The notes beneath the pieces are model-generated. The model was not told where the DNA came from and ran no database searches. It was given only the letters and a program-made list of their open reading frames with translations. 64,000 bases of DNA from Dipodascopsis uninucleata var. uninucleata. Its lineage: Eukaryota > Ascomycota > Lipomycetes > Lipomycetales > Lipomycetaceae. Shown here one piece after another: positions 2,029 to 24,146 of this stretch (its first letter is position 1; each line of letters begins with the position of its first letter). The stretch lies in contig JAJLTO010000001.1 of NCBI GenBank assembly GCA_030568195.1, forward strand, positions 62,001-126,000. The letters run 5' to 3'. The position numbers and the translations under genes were made by a program.

Positions 2029-3516
2029 CTATCGTGCTTTCTCCACATCATAACTCTCAGATTTGTTGGCATTATGGCTTGTTTTACAGGTCTCCGTAAT
2101 AATACCATCTCCTGATATGCTCATTACAGCAGATGTAAAGGAATTATTATCGTCGCTCTCAGTAGTACTTCTGGGATGCTCTGATTGATGCTGCTGCTGC
2201 TGCTGACTTTGCTGAGTCGTTCCCAATGACTTTGACGTCTCGTCAGCTTTCATTGCTTCTTCTTCGTCTTCCACCCAGCGACGAAATAGAGGAATGGTTA
2301 GATTAGAGAAGGTGAGCTGTTCAATTTGATACAAAATCATGGGAATCAGCAACATACTTTTTTCTTTCTCGCCGATCGCGGCATGTGAATATAGAGCGGT
2401 TACTAGAGGGACACCGAGAGCCGGAGTCTTCGCTGGAACAACGTAACATATCGCTATGGTATCACGCTTGCTAAATCTGAAAAAACCAACAATTGCATCA
2501 AGGTATTTATTTTTGAAGTGAATTTTATGAGATCCACGAGTAAGAGCGAGTGACACTCCTACGAATATCCAATATAGACCAATTCCAAGCAGTAAAACAA
2601 GCGCCTTTGTTTGTGCAGTCGAAGATTTAAATGCTCCAGTATAAAAGCTCGTAGAGAATGCAGACCACATGATGAAAATAAGGAAAATGCTGGCCCATTT
2701 GTTAACTTTAAGCTTTATGGTTACTCTCTTCACCATAGAAGGAAACAAATTTCGTAGTACTTGACCAGCAAATAAAGGTACAAATACAGTTAGCCCGAGT
2801 TGCTTGAATACGGACCTGTAAAGAACAGAATATCCTCCGCCACTTGTTCCAGGTCTTAAAACACCCCATTTTGGAGATGAAGTCATATACATTCCAATAA
2901 GAGCGGGGGTCAGAAATGGAGAGATAAGATTTGCAATTGTAACTTCTATCAGTGTCGCTGCTGCATTTCCATGGGCGCTTCTAGTGAAGACTACGTTTGA
3001 TCCAATTGTTGTAGGGGTGCAGCCGAGCATTATCACACCGGCCATGACAGGAGTATTGATATGCGAATTGTTCGACTCTATGGCCGCATATGCGAAAACA
3101 AAAAATAATGCCGATGCAAATAAGTACGACAATGTCTGTGCTACTATATGTATTCTATAGAGTGCAATTGCTTGTGCAAGAGTTGTAGTATCTATTGTCA
3201 GACCCGAAATGAAGAATATCATTGCGGGACACACATAAATTATAGAATACTGAGCAGCGATCCAACCGCCGCTCCTGCCCAGATTAGGTACCAAGTATGC
3301 AATAAGAATTGCGATACCCAGACTCCCTAAGAACCAGTAGTTTATAATAAATTGTAATACCTCTCTCCATGTTATCCGTCGAAGAAAGCTCATTCTTGAT
3401 TTCTTTATCTTGTCATCTTCGTCCATTCTGACCTTATTAAATATCCCGCTCTTCACGAATGTAGAATGGTTGCAGGTATAAATGTCGTCCGCAACTCTAG
3501 CCTCTGCATGTGCCAC
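2029..3516 (-). CDS. RCH1: SLC10A7/RCH1-type membrane transporter, calcium homeostasis regulator
   Basis: Single exon of 495 residues. It resembles the SLC10A7/Rch1 branch of the bile acid:sodium symporter fold. In yeasts Rch1 sits in the plasma membrane and restrains calcium uptake; the transported substrate is unclear. About ten hydrophobic segments run from residue 55 to about 400. Family-typical stretches are NYWFLGSLGIAILIAY (first membrane segment), PAMIFFISGLTIDT, GCTPTTIGSNVVFTR and PAKTPALGVPLVTALY. The last 80 residues are polar, with a short Gln run coded by CAG/CAA repeats, and are probably cytosolic. The first 45 residues are hydrophilic, and a second ATG lies at residue 31 (MDEDDKIKK), so the true start could be downstream. 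The gene is divergent from the small spliced ORF and the zinc-cluster gene upstream. Confidence 0.9.
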   Translation of the reverse strand: MAHAEARVADDIYTCNHSTFVKSGIFNKVRMDEDDKIKKSRMSFLRRITWREVLQFIINYWFLGSLGIAILIAYLVPNLGRSGGWIAAQYSIIYVCPAMIFFISGLTIDTTTLAQAIALYRIHIVAQTLSYLFASALFFVFAYAAIESNNSHINTPVMAGVIMLGCTPTTIGSNVVFTRSAHGNAAATLIEVTIANLISPFLTPALIGMYMTSSPKWGVLRPGTSGGGYSVLYRSVFKQLGLTVFVPLFAGQVLRNLFPSMVKRVTIKLKVNKWASIFLIFIMWSAFSTSFYTGAFKSSTAQTKALVLLLGIGLYWIFVGVSLALTRGSHKIHFKNKYLDAIVGFFRFSKRDTIAICYVVPAKTPALGVPLVTALYSHAAIGEKEKSMLLIPMILYQIEQLTFSNLTIPLFRRWVEDEEEAMKADETSKSLGTTQQSQQQQQHQSEHPRSTTESDDNNSFTSAVMSISGDGIITETCKTSHNANKSESYDVEKAR

Positions 3517-3618
3517 TAAACTTCGCGTAATCTTTTGGTATCTGGTTCGAATTCATTTATTAACTTCTTTTCAAAGAGAAGGGTACATATATATCATATC
3601 ATGGATGTCATAGATTGA

Positions 3619-3889
3619 ATGAACCTTCGCCGGATTACCGAGACGAGGTGCTCAAAGCCACATGGGTAAGTTTCAAGTGGCTGTTCTAATGAGGAGGTGC
3701 ATTAAGTAACGTGACTATAATTGTTTAGGGTATTTCTGCCTTAGTACAACTATGGCGGAAAGTGAACCTAGAATTTGGATTCTGGATAGAGCATCACAAC
3801 ATAAAGCAGACAAATTTTTGGACTGGATCAAGACTGAATCGGATAAAAAGAGGATTCAAAGGCTTCATATAGATATCTGGCAGGAATAG
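3619..3889 (+). CDS. Putative small spliced protein or upstream ORF, unknown function
   Basis: I do not recognise this. A 45-codon ORF starts at ATG 3752 (MAESEPRIWILDRASQ) and ends at TAG 3887-3889. It is preceded by a good intron: donor GTAAGT at 3666, CTAAT near 3685, acceptors at 3728 and 3744. Two spliced forms keep this frame open: exons 3619-3665 plus 3745-3889 (63 residues), or 3662-3665 plus 3729-3889 (54 residues). That two different starts and acceptors both join the same frame supports translation, but chance is possible. The ORF ends 45 bases before the ATG of the zinc-cluster factor and could be a regulatory upstream ORF in its leader, or an independent small gene. The peptide is charged, with no signal or membrane segment. 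Confidence 0.4.
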
Positions 3890-3934
3890 TTATTATTATA
3901 GTTACACATATAATAGAATATTGTCTTGGGTCGG

Positions 3935-4190
3935 ATGCAGGACTCGCAGGCTCAGCAAACACCACAGCAGCGTCCGGTCCCACAGTCTTCAGGAACTTCA
4001 TCATTGCCTTCAACTTCGTCTACTGGACGGCCGTTCTACACGCGCAATCGACGGGAAAGACCTTGCGATGGTTGTAGACGGCGGAAGACAAGGTGCCTGA
4101 GACCGGATGGGACGGCAGTGTGCACTATGTGTGTATCTCATAACGAAGTTTGTACTTTCGTACTAGAACCTCCGACTAGACGTCGACCGC

Positions 4191-4222
<32 letters not shown>

Positions 4223-6475
4223 CTGCAGACACAACTGCCGAAGGATATTCAAGCTGATGGTGGCGGCTCACAAATGCAGTTGCAAATGCAAATGCAGAAT
4301 GGGTCAAGCAATCAAATATTTAATGTACAGCCTTCTACAGCTGCAGCCACATGTTCCCAAAATGCAACTGCTTCAGGGTTTCCTTTGGCAAAGAGACATC
4401 GACCGAATAGCGCGATCATAAGTGACTCCACTGAACTGAAAGATGATGCTAAAGGAGATATAATGGACCCTATGTCTTACTCGAACTCATTGGGTATGAG
4501 TGAGACTATGTACTCGGAGCTTGTAGGGCCAAACTTACTTGATCATGAATTCCAGTTTGTACATAGACTTGCAGAAACATCGTCTGGTAACAGAATACCA
4601 ATATCAAAAATTAACTATCTCCGATCGGTTTCTGATGATGCTGTATTCATCATGACTGTTGACAGTGAGATTGAAGAAGATCATAAGCTGGTAGATGAAA
4701 TTGAGAAAATAGTTGAACCTTATGGATCCCAGCTAGTTGCATTGTATTTTAGGATTGTACATCCGTCATATCCTATAATTCACAAGACATATTTCCTCAC
4801 GCAATATAAAATTTCGCCGAAACAAATACAGCCTCCTCTTCTTGCAGCAGTATATTCATTGGCACTAAACTGGTGGGCCTATGATCACGAGCTTTCACAC
4901 TCTGCTACCAGGCCAGATTCTTTTATGTTAGATACAATTGCTTTTACTGCCATTCAAAGACATTTACATCGTGCTCGGCTGTCTACTGTACAAGCTGGCC
5001 TACTTCTTCTGCAACGGAAGCCGGAGTCAACTACTGGTGGATTAATGTTAGGGAAGACGCAGGTGTCGTCTTTTACAGCCCAGTTAATCGGAGTATCTCA
5101 AGCTCTAGGGCTGCATCTTGATTGTTCAAGATGGAACATTCCTGGATGGGAGATATTTTTAAGAAGGCGAGTGGCTTGGGCATTGTATGTGCAAGATAGA
5201 TGGGTTGCGCTCTGTCATGGTAGACCGTGCTATATTGATGAAAAGAATTGGGTAGTCCCTATGTTGAACAGAGACGATTTTTGCTTCGAATTGGCGTCGT
5301 CTGCTGCCGCTGTGATTGGCACTGGTGCAGAGCTAATGATTGAAATGTCAAGACTTACATCAATTCTATCTGAAATTCTTCAAACTTTCTTCTTTTCGGA
5401 CTATACTAGATACAAGCATGAAATTAAAGATCCATTTGTTGTTTTTGAGCTTGCCAAGCCGCTGCAACTAAAGCTTCGGCAGTGGTATTCCGGTCTATCT
5501 GAAGGTCTTCATATTAAGCCTGCAAATATTATCAACAAACGACTTTGTACGACGGGCTATCTACATCTCGCTTACTACTGTGTGGAGATAACACTTCACA
5601 GAGCTATCTTACGTGCACTGGAGACATGCACAGATAACTCTGTTATCTTGCAGTTCCGCACAGCCGCGAATGATCGTGCGTATGCAGCTGTTACTTTCGT
5701 ACAGTCATTGACCGTGGAATATCTGGAAGCATTTTGGATACATTCGTCAAGAGACTGCTTAGTGGAGATTGGTCAATTTATAACACTTCTGAAGGCTACT
5801 GCGACTTCTATAGAGGAAGCTTCGGTATACGATGATTATCAGGATAGTTTTAGATGGTATTTAAGAGTTCATTCACGGGCAGCTTGGATGTTTGAGTACG
5901 CGCTCTTGAGATTAGAAACGATAGTTTGGCCAACCTTTGAAGCAGTTCCAAGCTCATTGTCTAATATCTCCGTTGGTGAGACTTCTCAGACAAAACTTCA
6001 ACGTCATTCTATAGTGTCAAATTCTATGTCCCCTCAGAATAAATCACCTGGACAATCGCATCAATCACAGAATACTCCTCCACAGTCGAATCAATCTCAA
6101 GGTCAAACACAGTCTGTAGGCTCTATCAATTTGCAGTCTTTGTCAGAAATGACGGGAGTTCAACAAGTTAATACAGGTGTTTCGATTCCGGGTCTTTCTC
6201 ATTCACCTGTAAGAACTTCATTATCACCATCAACTCCTGTTATGACACAGCTGGCGTTACCTCAATTGCCTCCAACTGAGAACCAGAATGTGTCTTCTGG
6301 CATTCCTACCGTATCATCGTCATCGTCGATCTCATCAGCATCCACTGTACCTTCTTCAGTATTGTTACACTCTATTACTTCACTTGCGACAGATTCATTA
6401 CAACCTGCATCGGTAGAATTTGAAGATGTTAATAGCGTGATTGATAATTATATTTCAATGAGCGAAGTTACCTAA
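3935..6475 (+). CDS. Zn(II)2Cys6 transcription factor, DAL81/TamA-like
   Basis: Single exon of 846 residues from ATG 3935. The DNA-binding domain at about residues 30-75 has the six-cysteine pattern CDGCRRRKTRC followed by CTMCVSHNEVC, then a basic linker and an 11-Gln tract (CAA repeats). A fungal-specific middle homology domain follows from about residue 255 (QLVALYFRIVHPSYPIIHK, then LLAAVYSLALNWW and RRRVAWALYVQDRW). The C-terminal 180 residues are Ser/Gln/Pro-rich and may be an activation region. The spacing in the zinc cluster and the phrase CTFVLEPPTRRR recall the DAL81/UGA35/TamA family, nuclear co-activators of nitrogen-source catabolic genes (GABA, urea, allantoin). That subfamily placement is from memory and less certain than the zinc-cluster call. 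The next gene is dihydropyrimidinase, a nitrogen-salvage enzyme, which fits this role. Confidence 0.85.
4190..4222 (+). repeat. CAA microsatellite coding for 11 glutamines
   Basis: Eleven uninterrupted CAA codons just after the zinc cluster of the DAL81-like factor. Such tracts vary in length between strains. Confidence 0.95.
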
Positions 6476-17138: not shown

Positions 17139-19662
17139 ATGAAACCCCCTTTAAGTAGTGCTTCGCGTTATTCTTTTAGTATCGCAAAGAGCTGCTTGTT
17201 ATTATCAAGTTTCCTACCAGGTCTACATTCACATCCTATTGAGAAACACTTTTTCAGACGAGACGATGACGATGATACTGTAGACGGGGCTGAATACTGG
17301 GTCTTCCTTAGTATCTCCGTAGTTCTTGTTTTGCTAGGTGGTGTTTTTGCAGGTATGAAGTTGTTACCAGTTAACGTAACTGGGTGAGAGATATTGTTTT
17401 CTGTAAGACTAACTATTTGATCTAGGACTTACGCTTGGTCTTATGGGACAAGATGAAGTATATGTACGTGAATTATCGAATGAATGCTACTTCATAGAAT
17501 CTCTGTATTCTGTGGTAGCGTGCAAGTTAAATATTAGAACTTCTAATGGGTTCTGACTTGATATTTTGTTCTAGCTACAAGTAATTGAACAATCAGGAAC
17601 CCCTGTGGAACAGAAAAATGCTCGGAGGGTGCTGCAGTTACTGAAGAAAGGAAAGCACTGGGTATTGGTTACTATGCTTTGTAGGTGAACTCTTTCATGT
17701 TGATGGCGTTAAAGTTCAATTTACATTGAACGTCAGATTTGTAGCAATAGATGGCTAACCAGAATTTGCGCAGTCGGCAATGTGATCACAAACGAGGTAT
17801 TTGTTTCCTTTTCTTTTATATGGTATTGATTACACTATGATCCTTGCTAACTATCTTGATATCTCCTATAGACATTACCAATCGTTCTCGATAGATGTTT
17901 AGGTGGTGGATGGCCAGCAGTTGTATCTTCTACTATTCTGATCGTCATCTTTGGAGAGGTCATTCCCCAATCAATTTCAGTTCGTTATGGACTTGCTATA
18001 GGAGCATCCTTTGCTCCTTTCGTTCAATTCCTTATGTATGCTATGTATCCTGTATCTTATCCTACTGCGTTACTATTGGATCATGTTCTTGGCGAGGATC
18101 ATGGAACAGTATACCGAAAAGCACAGCTGAAAACTCTTGTTACTCTCCATCGTTCTATGGGAGTAGAAAGGCTGAATCGCGATGAAGTCACAATTATCTC
18201 TGCTGTACTGGATCTCAATGAGAAGCCTGTCGGATCAATCATGACTCCCATGCACGACGTTTATACCATGAGTGCAGACAGAATTTTAGATCAAGCAGCA
18301 GTAGATGAGATTTTAAAAGCTGGTTATAGCAGAATCCCTATTCACACACCTGATGAGCCCACTAACTTTATTGGAATGTTACTTGTCAGGATTTTAATTA
18401 GTTACGATCCGGATGATGCTCAACCAGTATCGACTTTTCCTCTGGCGACGCTACCTGAAACAAGACCTGATACTACTTGTCTGAATGTCTTGAATTATTT
18501 TCAGGAAGGAAAATCGCATATGATGCTTGTGTCTGATAGTCCGGGAGAGCCCTATGGAGCATTAGGCGTCGTTACTCTCGAGGACGTAATTGAGGAACTC
18601 ATTGGTGAGGAGATCGTTGATGAGTCGGATGTTTTCGTAGACATCGCTCATGGTATTCGCCGTAAATATGTGTCTCCACTTACTCGTCGTACTCTTCCGG
18701 CGCAGTTTGTTGCAAATCAGAAAAATCGCTCTGATATGACTTCTTCCGTTAACACAATTGAATCGCACTCGGATTCCTGGTCTCCCCATGAATCTTACGC
18801 ATCGATTGCCTTACTACCAAAGAGAACCGGTCAAGTTGGTGGTAAGATTGAACCTCTCAATCTTGCTATCAATCCTAAGCAGACCCACAACAGCAAGGTT
18901 ACAATTAAGAGAGGGGCAATGGAGGAATATGTACGGCGAAAGTCAACTGATTATCGTCCTGGACGTGTCTCCTTAGACCCTGGATTATTCCGAACTATTG
19001 AAGGCGGCGATAAACGTTACGGCGCTCCTCAAAATGGTGCTCACTATGGAAAAATACATGATTCTGAAGCTGCAGCATTACAAGATGCGTCTGCTGATGC
19101 TCAAGCAAGCAAAGCTCTCTCAACTCGCGGTGATGAAACCATTGCAAAAAACAATTCTAAAGCAAACTCGGAGACTACTTACGAGCTTAATATTTTTTCT
19201 AATACAGAATCTCCACATTCTGACGATAATGTTTCGAACAGAGAGAATAATCTCAGGGATACTAGTGAAACTGCAAAGTTGTTAGTTGCTGGTGATGCTG
19301 ACTATCAGAGTGGCAGCAGTGCTGATATCCATAACGAGAGTCCTAGTTTCTTCCGTGCCAGTGGTATTATTGAGTCTATTAGAGAGGTGCACGGTTACCA
19401 GAAAACAATTGTTGAATCAAAGCCTATGTCAGATGATGAGGATAACGCCCTTTATACTAGTAACGACTCTGGATCTGATGCTGGAGCTGGGAGGTCCGGA
19501 TCTGGTCTTGAAAATTCCTCGGTTTCAAAAACTGATGGTAAATCTCGTAAGCAAAAAAAGTCTATAAAGAGTGATCATAAAAGTCGTGCAGAATCACCAT
19601 CCTCCCAAAAAAAAAGGAAGGGAAGTTTTTTTTCTGACAGAGGGTCTAAGGGCCGCAAGTAA
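17139..19662 (+). CDS. MAM3: CNNM/Mam3-type membrane protein with DUF21 and CBS domains
   Basis: Five exons: 17139-17352, 17426-17463, 17575-17680, 17774-17796, 17872-19662; 723 residues. The two shortest exons are 38 and 23 bases, and all joins keep frame. Mam3 lies in the vacuolar membrane and affects manganese homeostasis; animal CNNM proteins handle magnesium. A signal-like hydrophobic segment at residues 10-30 is followed by an Asp-rich loop ([11 protein letters not shown]). The DUF21 domain runs from about 48 to 215 ([48 protein letters not shown]). The CBS pair runs from about 245 to 395 ([38 protein letters not shown]). The C-terminal 300 residues are polar and Ser-rich with a Lys-rich end, probably cytosolic and phosphorylated. 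Confidence 0.93.
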
Positions 19663-20022
19663 TTCCAGAGAAATAATAAGTGCAAAGAAGCGAGGAAACC
19701 AATACTCTGTTATCATTGTTCGTTGAATTGTTTATTTTCACTACTCTCCGTTTGATAAGACCACAAACGCTATCATCTGTAAAACTGGAGGATATATCAC
19801 TAGAGTTTTGATATATTAAAATTTACCATACATACTCACTGCCATATGTGTCTGCATGTAGTCACTAAAGGTACTCTGAGTTACTAACTACGTTCATTTG
19901 AATAACTGTTTAGAAATGGGTTAATATTATGTTGAGACTATGCTTATAATTTGCAATATCTTTAACAAGTTCAAATATAAATTTTGCAATTACTTCATGA
20001 ACTAAGAATTTATTTTATTTCG
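19663..20022. other. Convergent intergenic region (MAM3 / Zim17-like)
   Basis: About 360 AT-rich bases holding two 3' ends; nothing else recognised. Confidence 0.6.
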
Positions 20023-21163
20023 TCATTGTTTTGGTTCATTACTTCCTTTATTCACAGATATTTCTCTATCCTCCTCCTCTTCATCTGCTTCGTGGGAGTA
20101 CATTATACTATCAACTCCAAAAATAGATTCCAATTCTTCAGGAGATTTACCCATCAAGTCATTAAAGTCAAATGAACTTTGAGAGCCATTTTGTAAAAAC
20201 GCCTCGAAAGCATCTGGATATTCTTCTCTTTTCTCGTTCACATCATCCGCGTGATTACTGGTACTGGCTTCAATTGCTTCTTCAATTTCTTTCTCGAGAG
20301 CATCAATCGGAATATTCTCTTTCTCCATCATTAACCGTAGCTCTTTGATAACTTTCTTTTGACCACTCTTATTCAAGCCATGATAGTAGTTAAAAAACTT
20401 CGTTTCGATATTCTCTTCCTCGAGACCCTTTTCAAACACATATTCTTGGAACTCATCCACAGACATTTTTCCAGGCGGGCGAAACTCCATAACATTGTCT
20501 CTATGAAAAAAACGGTTGTCATTTATAGTCGCCTCTCCTGTAAGCTTCATCAGCTCTTTGACAGGCACATTATCCATATCCTCAGGAAATATCTAAAGAA
20601 AAAACTAGGTGAGTATGTATCTTAATGCATGGATTTACAAACTCTGAACTTACCTCCAAGTTGTCTACAAATATATGCCTGGTATCACACCCAGGACAAG
20701 CTATTACCACTGTCCCTTCTTCATATGCGGGCTGAGAGATAAAGTGACCAGATCTAGTTTCACAGGTACCGCAAGTGATTCTAGTAAATATCATTGGCAT
20801 TCCCTTAGGTAGGATAGCAGCATTGGCCTCTTCTTCTGTAGGATATTCGGGATCATTTTTCTCGTCATAAAGATCGGCTAAAATATCCTCCGCAGACTGT
20901 TTGCCTTGAGCTTTATTATTTCCATCTATTTTATCATTTCTTAGCGTACTCTTGGGCCTTCCTGCTTGCGGGAACATTGTGGACATATACGCATATTGAT
21001 CAAATGTCCTACTTGTTATCATGGAGCGTTGGCGTAGATTCCAGCCGCCTTCAATATTCACATCATGGCCAAGCCATTGCCTGTATGCTATGCTGAAACG
21101 ACAATAAATATAATTTCTACAAAAACCACGACTTACTCTCGTTGATAACGACCTCATTTCCAT
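20023..21163 (-). CDS. Zim17-type (DNL) zinc-finger protein with long C-terminal extension
   Basis: Two exons, 20654-21163 and 20023-20592; 359 residues. The intron has donor GTAAGT and acceptor TTTCTTTAG. The DNL zinc finger at about residues 125-170 has CGTCETRSGHFISQ and CPGCDTRHIFVDNLE, i.e. two CxxC pairs with the family's His and Asp residues. Zim17/Hep1 keeps mitochondrial Hsp70 soluble. The Arg/aromatic-rich N-terminus suggests mitochondrial targeting. After the finger comes a 190-residue tail that normal Zim17 lacks. It is mostly acidic and helical in composition (FFNYYHGLNKSGQKKVIKEL), and I do not recognise it. The gene is head-to-head with the standard Zim17 gene 215 bases away, and both have an intron at the same place in the finger. 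A GTAAGT-like site near 21136 could create another 5' intron, but the frame is open without it. Confidence 0.8.
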
Positions 21164-21378
21164 ACTAGAGAAATACAAGCATCTGACTGTAATAGAAAAA
21201 TTGATCTCGGAAGAATTGGAAATAGTTTCCCATATTTTCAGGGGACCCCGAACCCTTGAAGTGACAAGTTCTAGATGTTTATGAGACGTGCTAGAAAGAT
21301 TTTCTCATCTACTGAATACATATAGGATGCTGATCCAGGAGTTCTCGGAAATTAGGTGTTGTTGGTTCGATTAGTAGA
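21164..21378. promoter_or_regulatory. Bidirectional promoter region of the two Zim17-type genes
   Basis: Only 215 bases separate the two divergent start codons, so both promoters and leaders must share this stretch. No specific factor site was recognised. Confidence 0.55.
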
Positions 21379-22027
21379 ATGTATCTAGGAACTATGAGCA
21401 AAATATCAGGCATTCCTTCTCTAATTAGAATAGGAAGTTGCGTTACTCCAAGTCTAAGTGCCAGCAGATATGGACTGAGAGTATTTGTGGCAAGAAATCG
21501 AGCACACATCTCAAACTATCAGCAACAACGATTTTTACGATCCTTCACTTCTAATGCATTTCAGTTACGAGATTCCAAAGATAAGAAAGAAGACACAAGC
21601 GCAAATCTAAGTAACGAGGTAAAGGAGGTTGCTAGAGTAAAGATTCCAGTAGATAAGCCGACATATAATATCACATTTACATGCAAAGTATGCCAACATC
21701 GTTCTAGTCATTTTATGTCACACCAGGCCTATCATTCAGGAACTGTTCTTATCAAATGTCCTAGCTGTAATAACAGACATCTTATTGCAGACCATCTTAA
21801 GGTAAGTACAATTAATAGTTTGTGGTTTCATTTCATATTGTTTTATGGTGGTCCATCTAATGAACTCATTCATTCATTCATAGATTTTTTCGGATACAAG
21901 TGTTACGGTAGAAGATTTGATCTCGAAAGGTGGCGAAGTAGTTCGAAAGGGTACATTAACAGAGACAAGGGGTGACATTTTAGAATTTACAGACTCTGAT
22001 GAATCCAGTTCGAGCGAAAAGCAGTAA
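21379..22027 (+). CDS. ZIM17: Zim17/Hep1-type mitochondrial Hsp70 escort protein
   Basis: Two exons, 21379-21801 and 21884-22027; 188 residues, the usual size. Zim17 (Hep1/Tim15) is a mitochondrial matrix zinc protein that prevents self-aggregation of Ssc1-type Hsp70 and so supports protein import and Fe-S assembly. A basic presequence ([16 protein letters not shown], later FVARNRAH) precedes the DNL finger at about residues 98-142: [21 protein letters not shown] and [17 protein letters not shown]. The second exon continues with [19 protein letters not shown], the conserved post-finger segment. The intron falls directly after DHLK, exactly as after DNLE in the divergent neighbour. A second ATG at residue 6 is an alternative start. 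Confidence 0.92.
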
Positions 22028-22756
22028 GGGAAATTCTTGTTCGAGAAGCATGAATTGAATTGTTCTCGCAAGTTCACTAAACTGGACTTCCCCGAGCACT
22101 ACCGACTGTCATAACAATTAATTCGACTTTTCTCCTGTATACATGTAAATAACTATAAATAATTATACAAATGCTTCGCTATAACATAAAAATTGAAATA
22201 ATAAGGTCGTGCATCACTATCTGCGAGAAATTGAGAAATTTTTGTTTGTCAGATATACGTCATAAGAGCATTTTATATCACTGGTTGGCTATTCACAGCA
22301 GATACTATGAATATATATACCACACAACATTAGGTCTCGCATAATATTTGCAAGCCAAATAGGATAAAGAAGAAAGACGACTTTTTGATTTGGGATATTA
22401 TGAGTACTTATATAATACTATAAAAAAATCGCTATTATATATCACAGAATCAAATCAGAACACTAGCATACTAGATAGCAAAGTTATTTATTACATTAAT
22501 AATTTTAGGAATGATCGAGATTAGAACTGCGGTAAGATAAATAGAAGCATCCACCTTAGTATATTTGTATAGTAAGATAATTGTACTGGCTGTCCTGTAT
22601 CTTACGAGTAAAAATGTTCTTGGGTACTTGTACATAATAAAGTAAATTACCTAGTAAAATGGAATGTGGACGAATAATCTGGCTGGGATTGACATCTACT
22701 TTCTAAAGTAATTTGCAGGAAAGCTTGAACTTTCCCAAACATTCTTCCCAAGTATA
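22028..22756. other. Intergenic region (ZIM17 3' end / GLO1 promoter)
   Basis: About 730 AT-rich bases between same-strand genes. No gene or clear structure seen. Confidence 0.6.
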
Positions 22757-24146
22757 ATGCTTTATATATCTGCTTTTTCCAAGGTTTCACGTACTTTCTC
22801 ACGTCAAACACCACGGAATTATTTTGGCTACTCAATTCGTCCAAATTTGGTAGGAAGTCGAATTTCTCAGATTTTAAACCAATCTTTAATTCAGCTAGTA
22901 AAAATGTCTACAGATGTCACGAGTTACAAGTTTAATCACACGATGTAAGAATACGATAACGATAAGGATAAGAGGCCTCAGTAAGCACAACCTGAGTCAC
23001 TTCAATTCACATCCATATCCATTTTCACTATTCAAAAAATATTTTAGGATAATAATTATTTTGTTTAATTAGCTAATGCTTGTATCTGAATTATGATAGG
23101 CTTCGCATTAAGGACCCTCAAGCTTCGTTGAAGTTCTACCAAGAAAACTTCGGTATGAAGCTTATCCGACAGTTGGATTTCCCAGAGGCCAAGTTCTCTT
23201 TGTACTTTCTGGTGTTTGATGGTGCTAAGGCAGCAAATGCAGGAAAGGAATGGACCGACAGGTATATTGACATTAATGATGTGCATTTTAATGAATGAGA
23301 GTTTGTTGACCTCTTTGGGACTTATAGAGAGGGTGTCCTTGAGCTTACGCACAACTATGGAACCGAAAACGACCCGGACTATAAGGTCAATACTGGGAAT
23401 ACAGACCCATATAGAGGGTTTGGACATATCTGTGTGTCTGTCGATAATATCGAGCTTTTCTGTGACAAATTGGAGGCCAATGGTGTCAAGTTTCAGAAGA
23501 AATTAACTGATGGAAGACGTAAGGGCACTGAAAATCTACACTAAGACATAATTCTTAATACTGATTTATATTATCTATAGAGAAAGATATTGCTTTTGCC
23601 TTGGATCCAGATGGATACTGGGTTGAGTTGATTTGGACCAGAACTCCGAAGACTGAGAATTTTACTGATGCTTCAGCATACAGAATGAATCATACTATGA
23701 TCCGAGTCAAGGATCCTAAGAAGTCTCTTAAATTCTATCAGGAGATTCTTGGTATGAAGCTTTTGCGTACTGCAGAGCATGCCAATGCCAAGTTTACTTT
23801 ATATTTCCTTGGTTACAACAATGACCCCAATTTCGTTGAAAACTCTGGTGTTGGCGTCCACAATTTTGAAGGTGTCCTCGAGCTTACCTGGAACTGGGGT
23901 ACTGAGAGCGATTCTGAGTTCAAGGGTTATCACAATGGTAACGATGAGCCTCAGGGATTCGGTCACATTTGCATTTCTGTGGATGATCTTGATGCTGCGT
24001 GTGCTCGATTCGATTCCATGGGTGTCAAGTGGAAGAAGAGGCTCACTGACGGTCGTATGAAGAATGTTGCTTTCATCCTTGACGAAGACAACTACTGGGT
24101 CGAAGTTATTCAGAATGAAGCCATCAAGAAAAATGCTAATTGGTAA
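22757..24146 (+). CDS. GLO1: Glyoxalase I, two-domain lactoylglutathione lyase
   Basis: Four exons: 22757-22944, 23100-23261, 23328-23518, 23581-24146; 368 residues. It converts the methylglyoxal-glutathione hemithioacetal to S-lactoylglutathione. Two tandem glyoxalase domains are present, as in yeast Glo1. Domain 1 starts at YKFNHTMLRIKD and has EGVLELTHN, GFGHICVSV and DPDGYWVEL. Domain 2 starts at YRMNHTMIRVKD and has EGVLELTWN, GFGHICISV and EDNYWVEV. These carry the Glu, His and Glu metal positions of each site. The first 49 residues form an Arg/Ser-rich amphipathic leader (AFSKVSRTFSRQTPRNYFG) not needed by the enzyme fold. A second in-frame ATG at 22904 (MSTDVTSYK) would give the usual cytosolic form. 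The gene may therefore make mitochondrial and cytosolic products. Confidence 0.94.

Follow-up and report, generated by a model that had tools for sequence, protein, structure and literature searches.

Two genes for DNL zinc-finger proteins (zf-DNL; the Zim17/Tim15/Hep1 family) stand head-to-head in the yeast Dipodascopsis uninucleata var. uninucleata. The locus raises the question of what a second copy is for: do the two proteins serve two Hsp70s or a single one, and when did the pair arise? In S. cerevisiae, one escort attends more than one matrix Hsp70, whereas in the present genome a single one appears to be attended by two. The interest of the locus lies in this duplication of the escort without that of the chaperone. 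The pair is probably composed of two paralogous mitochondrial Hsp70-escort proteins for one matrix Hsp70: an ordinary Zim17 encoded by the right gene, and a diverged, probably old, acidic-armed paralogue encoded by the left gene. All coordinates below are positions in the window, the whole stretch of 64,000 nucleotides that was analysed (contig JAJLTO010000001.1); the left gene is on the minus strand and the right gene on the plus strand. The features of the pair are as follows.

20023..20592, minus strand: left gene, exon 2; 189 residues and the stop; the DNL domain is completed here (its Pfam match ends at residue 190) and followed by the acidic C-terminal tail, to residue 359
20593..20653, minus strand: left gene, intron; 61 nt, phase 0, GTAAGT...TTTAG
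20654..21163, minus strand: left DNL gene, exon 1; 170 residues with a basic N-terminus, a linker and the zinc finger (CGTC 131-134, CPGC 156-159, R162, H163, D167)
21164..21378, no strand: upstream region common to both genes; 215 bases, ATG to ATG
21379..21801, plus strand: right DNL gene (canonical Zim17), exon 1; 141 residues, with a single acidic one among the first 66, and the zinc finger (CKVC 102-105, CPSC 127-130)
21802..21883, plus strand: right gene, intron; 82 nt, phase 0, GTAAGT...CATAG, at the aligned position of the left intron
21884..22027, plus strand: right gene, exon 2; 47 residues and the stop

The gene pair and its zinc fingers

The spliced genes encode proteins of 359 (left) and 188 (right) residues. 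Both are far above the Pfam zf-DNL cut-off of 27 bits, with matches of 68 bits for the left protein (residues 129-190) and 100.2 bits for the right one (residues 98-159). The original prediction of a head-to-head DNL pair is thereby confirmed, with the 215-base gap between the ATGs exact, as is the description of the right copy as the normal 188-residue form. A whole-genome profile search found these two zf-DNL loci and no others in the 16.2-Mb genome. In the titles and abstract openings found, a body of literature that mostly leaves out subscription journals, no second Zim17-type gene of a fungus was described.

The start of the left gene, at 21163, is the first in-frame ATG past the upstream stop. 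A GTAAGT donor occurs soon after it, at 21136, and the listed acceptors from 21117 to 20926 break the frame; an additional intron running to the in-frame acceptor at 20897 may exist, and would only drop 240 nt of an already open frame. A plain pattern search of the 215-base gap found neither a heat-shock core (GAAnnTTC or TTCnnGAA) nor a TATA[AT]A element. The pair has two neighbours, both on the plus strand. The one downstream of the left gene encodes a CNNM/CBS-domain membrane protein (17872-19662); the one downstream of the right gene is of glyoxalase type and apparently consists of two related halves (23077-24146).

The best PDB match of both proteins is Tim15, 2e2z (E 1.3e-15 for the left and 1.1e-24 for the right), the structure of yeast Hep1 (Zim17/Tim15) according to the excerpted text of PMC4890766. 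Both possess two CX2C motifs with 21 residues between them, starting at residues 131 and 156 in the left protein and at 102 and 127 in the right one, and all four cysteines are kept; CX2C-X21-CX2C is the spacing rule given for Zim17/Tim15/Hep1 (PMC4890766, excerpt). In a three-way alignment of left, right and Tim15, both copies also have the counterparts of yeast R106, H107 and D111. These three are described as critical for the interaction with mtHsp70 (PMC4890766, excerpt). According to PMC8347752 (excerpt), ATPase stimulation requires His107, and in humans the protein binds the nucleotide domain of Hsp70.

Of the three proteins scanned, however, the left one scores lowest against zf-DNL (68 bits, with 100.2 for the right copy and 84.7 for an alga-like relative described below), and its finger could therefore have lost activity or switched partner. 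Within their first 30 residues, the left protein has six basic and one acidic residues, and the right one three basic and none acidic; within the first 66, these counts are nine and four (left) and nine and one (right). Judged by charge, both N-termini are compatible with mitochondrial presequences, the left one being less typical than the right.

Known DNL systems match the pair in part. The S. cerevisiae protein (2e2z) resembles both copies in its DNL zinc ribbon, its cysteine spacing and the R106/H107/D111 triad; to our knowledge, however, that yeast has one zf-DNL gene, which has neither this intron nor a long acidic tail. In humans, HEP1/DNLZ is the product of a single gene. With its 15 kDa (PMC8347752, excerpt) it is far shorter than the left protein, and its C-terminal sub-domain has been suggested to regulate the zinc-finger part (PMC4890766, excerpt). 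Arabidopsis, as described in the excerpted text of PMC9695410, has several DNL paralogues in one genome, as here (ZR1/ZR2/ZR3, or Tim15-1/-3/-2), but these differ by their place in the cell (plastid; plastid and cytosol; mitochondrion), whereas the present pair belongs to a yeast without plastid and with one mtHsp70 found. In Plasmodium, PfHep1 (302 residues) is, like the left copy, a DNL protein enlarged outside the conserved finger; its enlargement lies upstream of the finger, in an asparagine-rich protein for which the excerpted text names one gene (PMC4890766), while that of the left copy is C-terminal.

A common intron site and the age of the duplication

Both introns are in phase 0 and fall in the same alignment column, directly before an invariant IF, after a glutamate in the left protein and a lysine in the right one. 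The introns had been predicted to lie at corresponding places, and this is what the alignment displays. By our own estimate, two single introns would be unlikely to meet at one site and phase by chance, roughly 1 in the ~560 coding positions that the shorter gene offers. The natural reading of the identical site and phase is thus a common intron-bearing ancestor that was duplicated as DNA. The site itself says nothing on the age of this duplication. In all five Hsp70-family loci viewed (L003-L007, five of eight), a GTAAGT likewise occurs within the 300 bases that precede the main frame; this suggests that introns near the 5' end may be frequent in this yeast, whereas those of the DNL pair come late.

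The age was approached through sequence identity. In 51 core columns, right and Tim15 share 35 identities (69%), left and right 23 (45%), and left and Tim15 24. Among 73 ungapped columns of the three-way alignment, all three agree in 28 and all differ in 21, while right and Tim15 alone agree in 18, left and Tim15 alone in five, and left and right alone in one. Where the left protein sides with just one of the others, it thus sides with Tim15 in five of six columns and with its neighbour in one, a difference that is not significant (binomial p 0.109). Since the left protein resembles its neighbour no more than it resembles Tim15, the duplication looks old, although the comparison is statistically undecisive. 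Such a lack of special kinship would be expected of a duplication that took place around the time of, or before, the separation from the S. cerevisiae lineage.

Relatives beyond this genome were sought in viral and genome contigs. In the viral contigs, 4, 8 and 14 stretches matched the patterns for left exon 1, left exon 2 and right exon 1, and 30 and 24 stretches matched those for two alignments, with none confirmed in either set. The motif ADNLGWF is known from DNL proteins of other eukaryotes; a DNA pattern for it met 13 loci in the viral contigs, none of them a DNL protein by profile. The scan of genome contigs matched 31 stretches, of which one is a relative (L011, CAJJAW010000007.1) and serves as the sole outgroup. 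This locus, at 2255-5790 of a contig of 210 kb that is recorded as part of an Alphaproteobacteria MAG, holds a zf-DNL gene (84.7 bits) together with genes for a DUF842 protein ("eukaryotic protein of unknown function") and an MCM-binding factor; a fourth frame was scanned and had no match. The contig looks like a eukaryotic one placed in a bacterial bin, perhaps algal by our guess.

A quartet test on the 51 core columns with left, right, Tim15 and this outgroup favours a tree joining right with Tim15 and left with the outgroup. It rejects neither alternative (AU p 0.268 for left and right as sisters, and 0.294 for the other), and for this reason no claim on the tree is drawn from it. That left and right escape rejection as sisters suits a lineage-specific history, in which Zim17 was duplicated in inverted orientation after the split from S. 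cerevisiae and the left copy then evolved very fast, under relaxed constraint or towards a new function. The adjacency of the copies, their head-to-head orientation and their common intron site point the same way. The identities argue against it, with 23 of the 51 core columns shared between left and right versus 24 between left and Tim15, and so, without reaching significance, do the one-sided columns. Furthermore, a search of 19650-22750 for inverted repeats of at least 14 nt returned only four pairs, which measure 14-17 nt and have a complementarity of 86-88%. A recent lineage-specific duplication is therefore possible but doubtful. Of the inverted duplication with a kept intron that had been proposed, the DNA-level duplication of an intron-bearing gene stands on the identical site; its being recent finds no support, as inverted repeats do not exceed 17 nt and the left protein is as far from the right one as from Tim15, within the statistical limits given above.

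The tail of the left protein

The tail spans residues ~191-359, that is 169 residues past the Pfam match, and makes left exon 2 longer than right exon 2 by 142 residues. Of its 148 residues from 212 onward, 39 are Asp or Glu and 16 are Lys or Arg, and it is called acidic on this ground. The 190-residue acidic tail of the original prediction is thus right as to its acidity and too long: about 140-170 residues are extra, and 189 is the length of the whole left exon 2, the end of the DNL domain included.

Could this tail be a neighbouring gene joined by mistake, or non-coding sequence? A single uninterrupted exon encodes both the C-terminal part of the DNL domain and the tail. All four exons have the best codon score of their six frames in the coding frame, at -0.417 and 0.054 for left exons 1 and 2, and -0.410 and -0.038 for right exons 1 and 2; the tail alone scores 0.069, its best other frame -0.378. 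A wide control (22101-23000) reached -0.350, above both first exons; as it probably includes a first exon of the glyoxalase gene, the control was repeated on the intergenic stretches 22101-22700 and 19681-20010, where the best scores were -0.661 and -0.542 (78 values in all), below all four exons. On the side of such an error, no homologues of the tail were found elsewhere in the genome or in the viral contigs, and left exon 2 matched only itself in its own genome. Against this, the coding-like codon use of the tail and the exon that it shares with the last part of the DNL domain make a mis-joined gene, named beforehand as what would refute the prediction, or non-coding sequence very improbable.

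Profile searches assigned no significant family to the tail. The best match, PRESAN (E 0.0085), is under the cut-off, as are those to VPS38, DUF4441 and XRCC4, and all four are taken as chance. An AlphaFold model of left exon 2 alone, from its single sequence, consists mostly of helices and is unreliable (mean pLDDT 41.9).

Hsp70 partners and possible roles of the two DNL proteins

Eight HSP70-family matches were found in the genome, seven of which were scanned against NCBIfam; the eighth (L010) lies in a 702-residue frame and matches in part, with 37 bits. The DnaK equivalog TIGR02350 is passed by one of the seven, L004, with 879.4 bits for a cut-off of 822.55 (the next reaches 791.9), and the laxer NF001413 (cut-off 648) by four, L003, L004, L005 and L006, the best being L004 with 920.6. 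The other six scanned proteins we take to be Kar2, Ssa, Ssb, Sse1, Ssz1 and Lhs1, Kar2 being the one that ends in DHDEL; since four of seven pass NF001413, the placing of these Hsp70s in other compartments rests on our reading. Mge1 (GrpE), Tim44 and Pam16 were found at one locus each. The genome thus yielded two predicted escorts, but one putative mtHsp70, and each of three further motor components in a single copy. The suggestion that the two copies might serve two Hsp70s finds no support in these counts. Each copy having its own Hsp70 would have a precedent in S. cerevisiae, where Hep1 has two matrix clients, Ssc1 and Ssq1 (PMC4890766, excerpt), but one passing match among the seven scanned, beside a partial eighth, makes it very unlikely here.

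If the pair consists of two escorts for one mtHsp70, both fingers would bind this chaperone and prevent its aggregation. The plain right copy would act as its general escort, and the arm of the left copy may recruit or hold mtHsp70 at a subset of tasks, or modulate the finger. Modulation of the finger by the C-terminal part has been suggested for the human protein (PMC4890766, excerpt).

The left protein may instead stand outside the escort role, as a DNL-ribbon protein with another partner or compartment, of which the tail would be the business end. Its family score, the lowest of the three scanned, its long acidic extension and the finding of one mtHsp70 would fit such a departure, which we nevertheless hold to be unlikely: it keeps all four zinc ligands as well as the three residues to which mtHsp70 binding has been ascribed, and its first 30 residues are basic. 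A more specific idea, and one we regard as distinctly improbable, is that the left gene represents an ancient second escort class, lost from S. cerevisiae, whose tail would steer part of the single mtHsp70 to one task, such as Fe-S cluster transfer. Specialisation would then have come via duplication of the escort, not of the chaperone. In Saccharomyces, Fe-S cluster transfer is given to a second Hsp70, Ssq1.

Coming back to two escorts for one mtHsp70, the pair, if both copies are active, would provide a natural test of mtHsp70 specialisation by escort instead of chaperone duplication. If the left copy belongs to a paralogue widespread among yeasts, it would reveal an annotation gap, not a surprise. 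The genome also encodes the 49-kDa subunit of complex I, whose best match is to NUCM chains, presumably those of Yarrowia lipolytica, and which fits a budding yeast with complex I.
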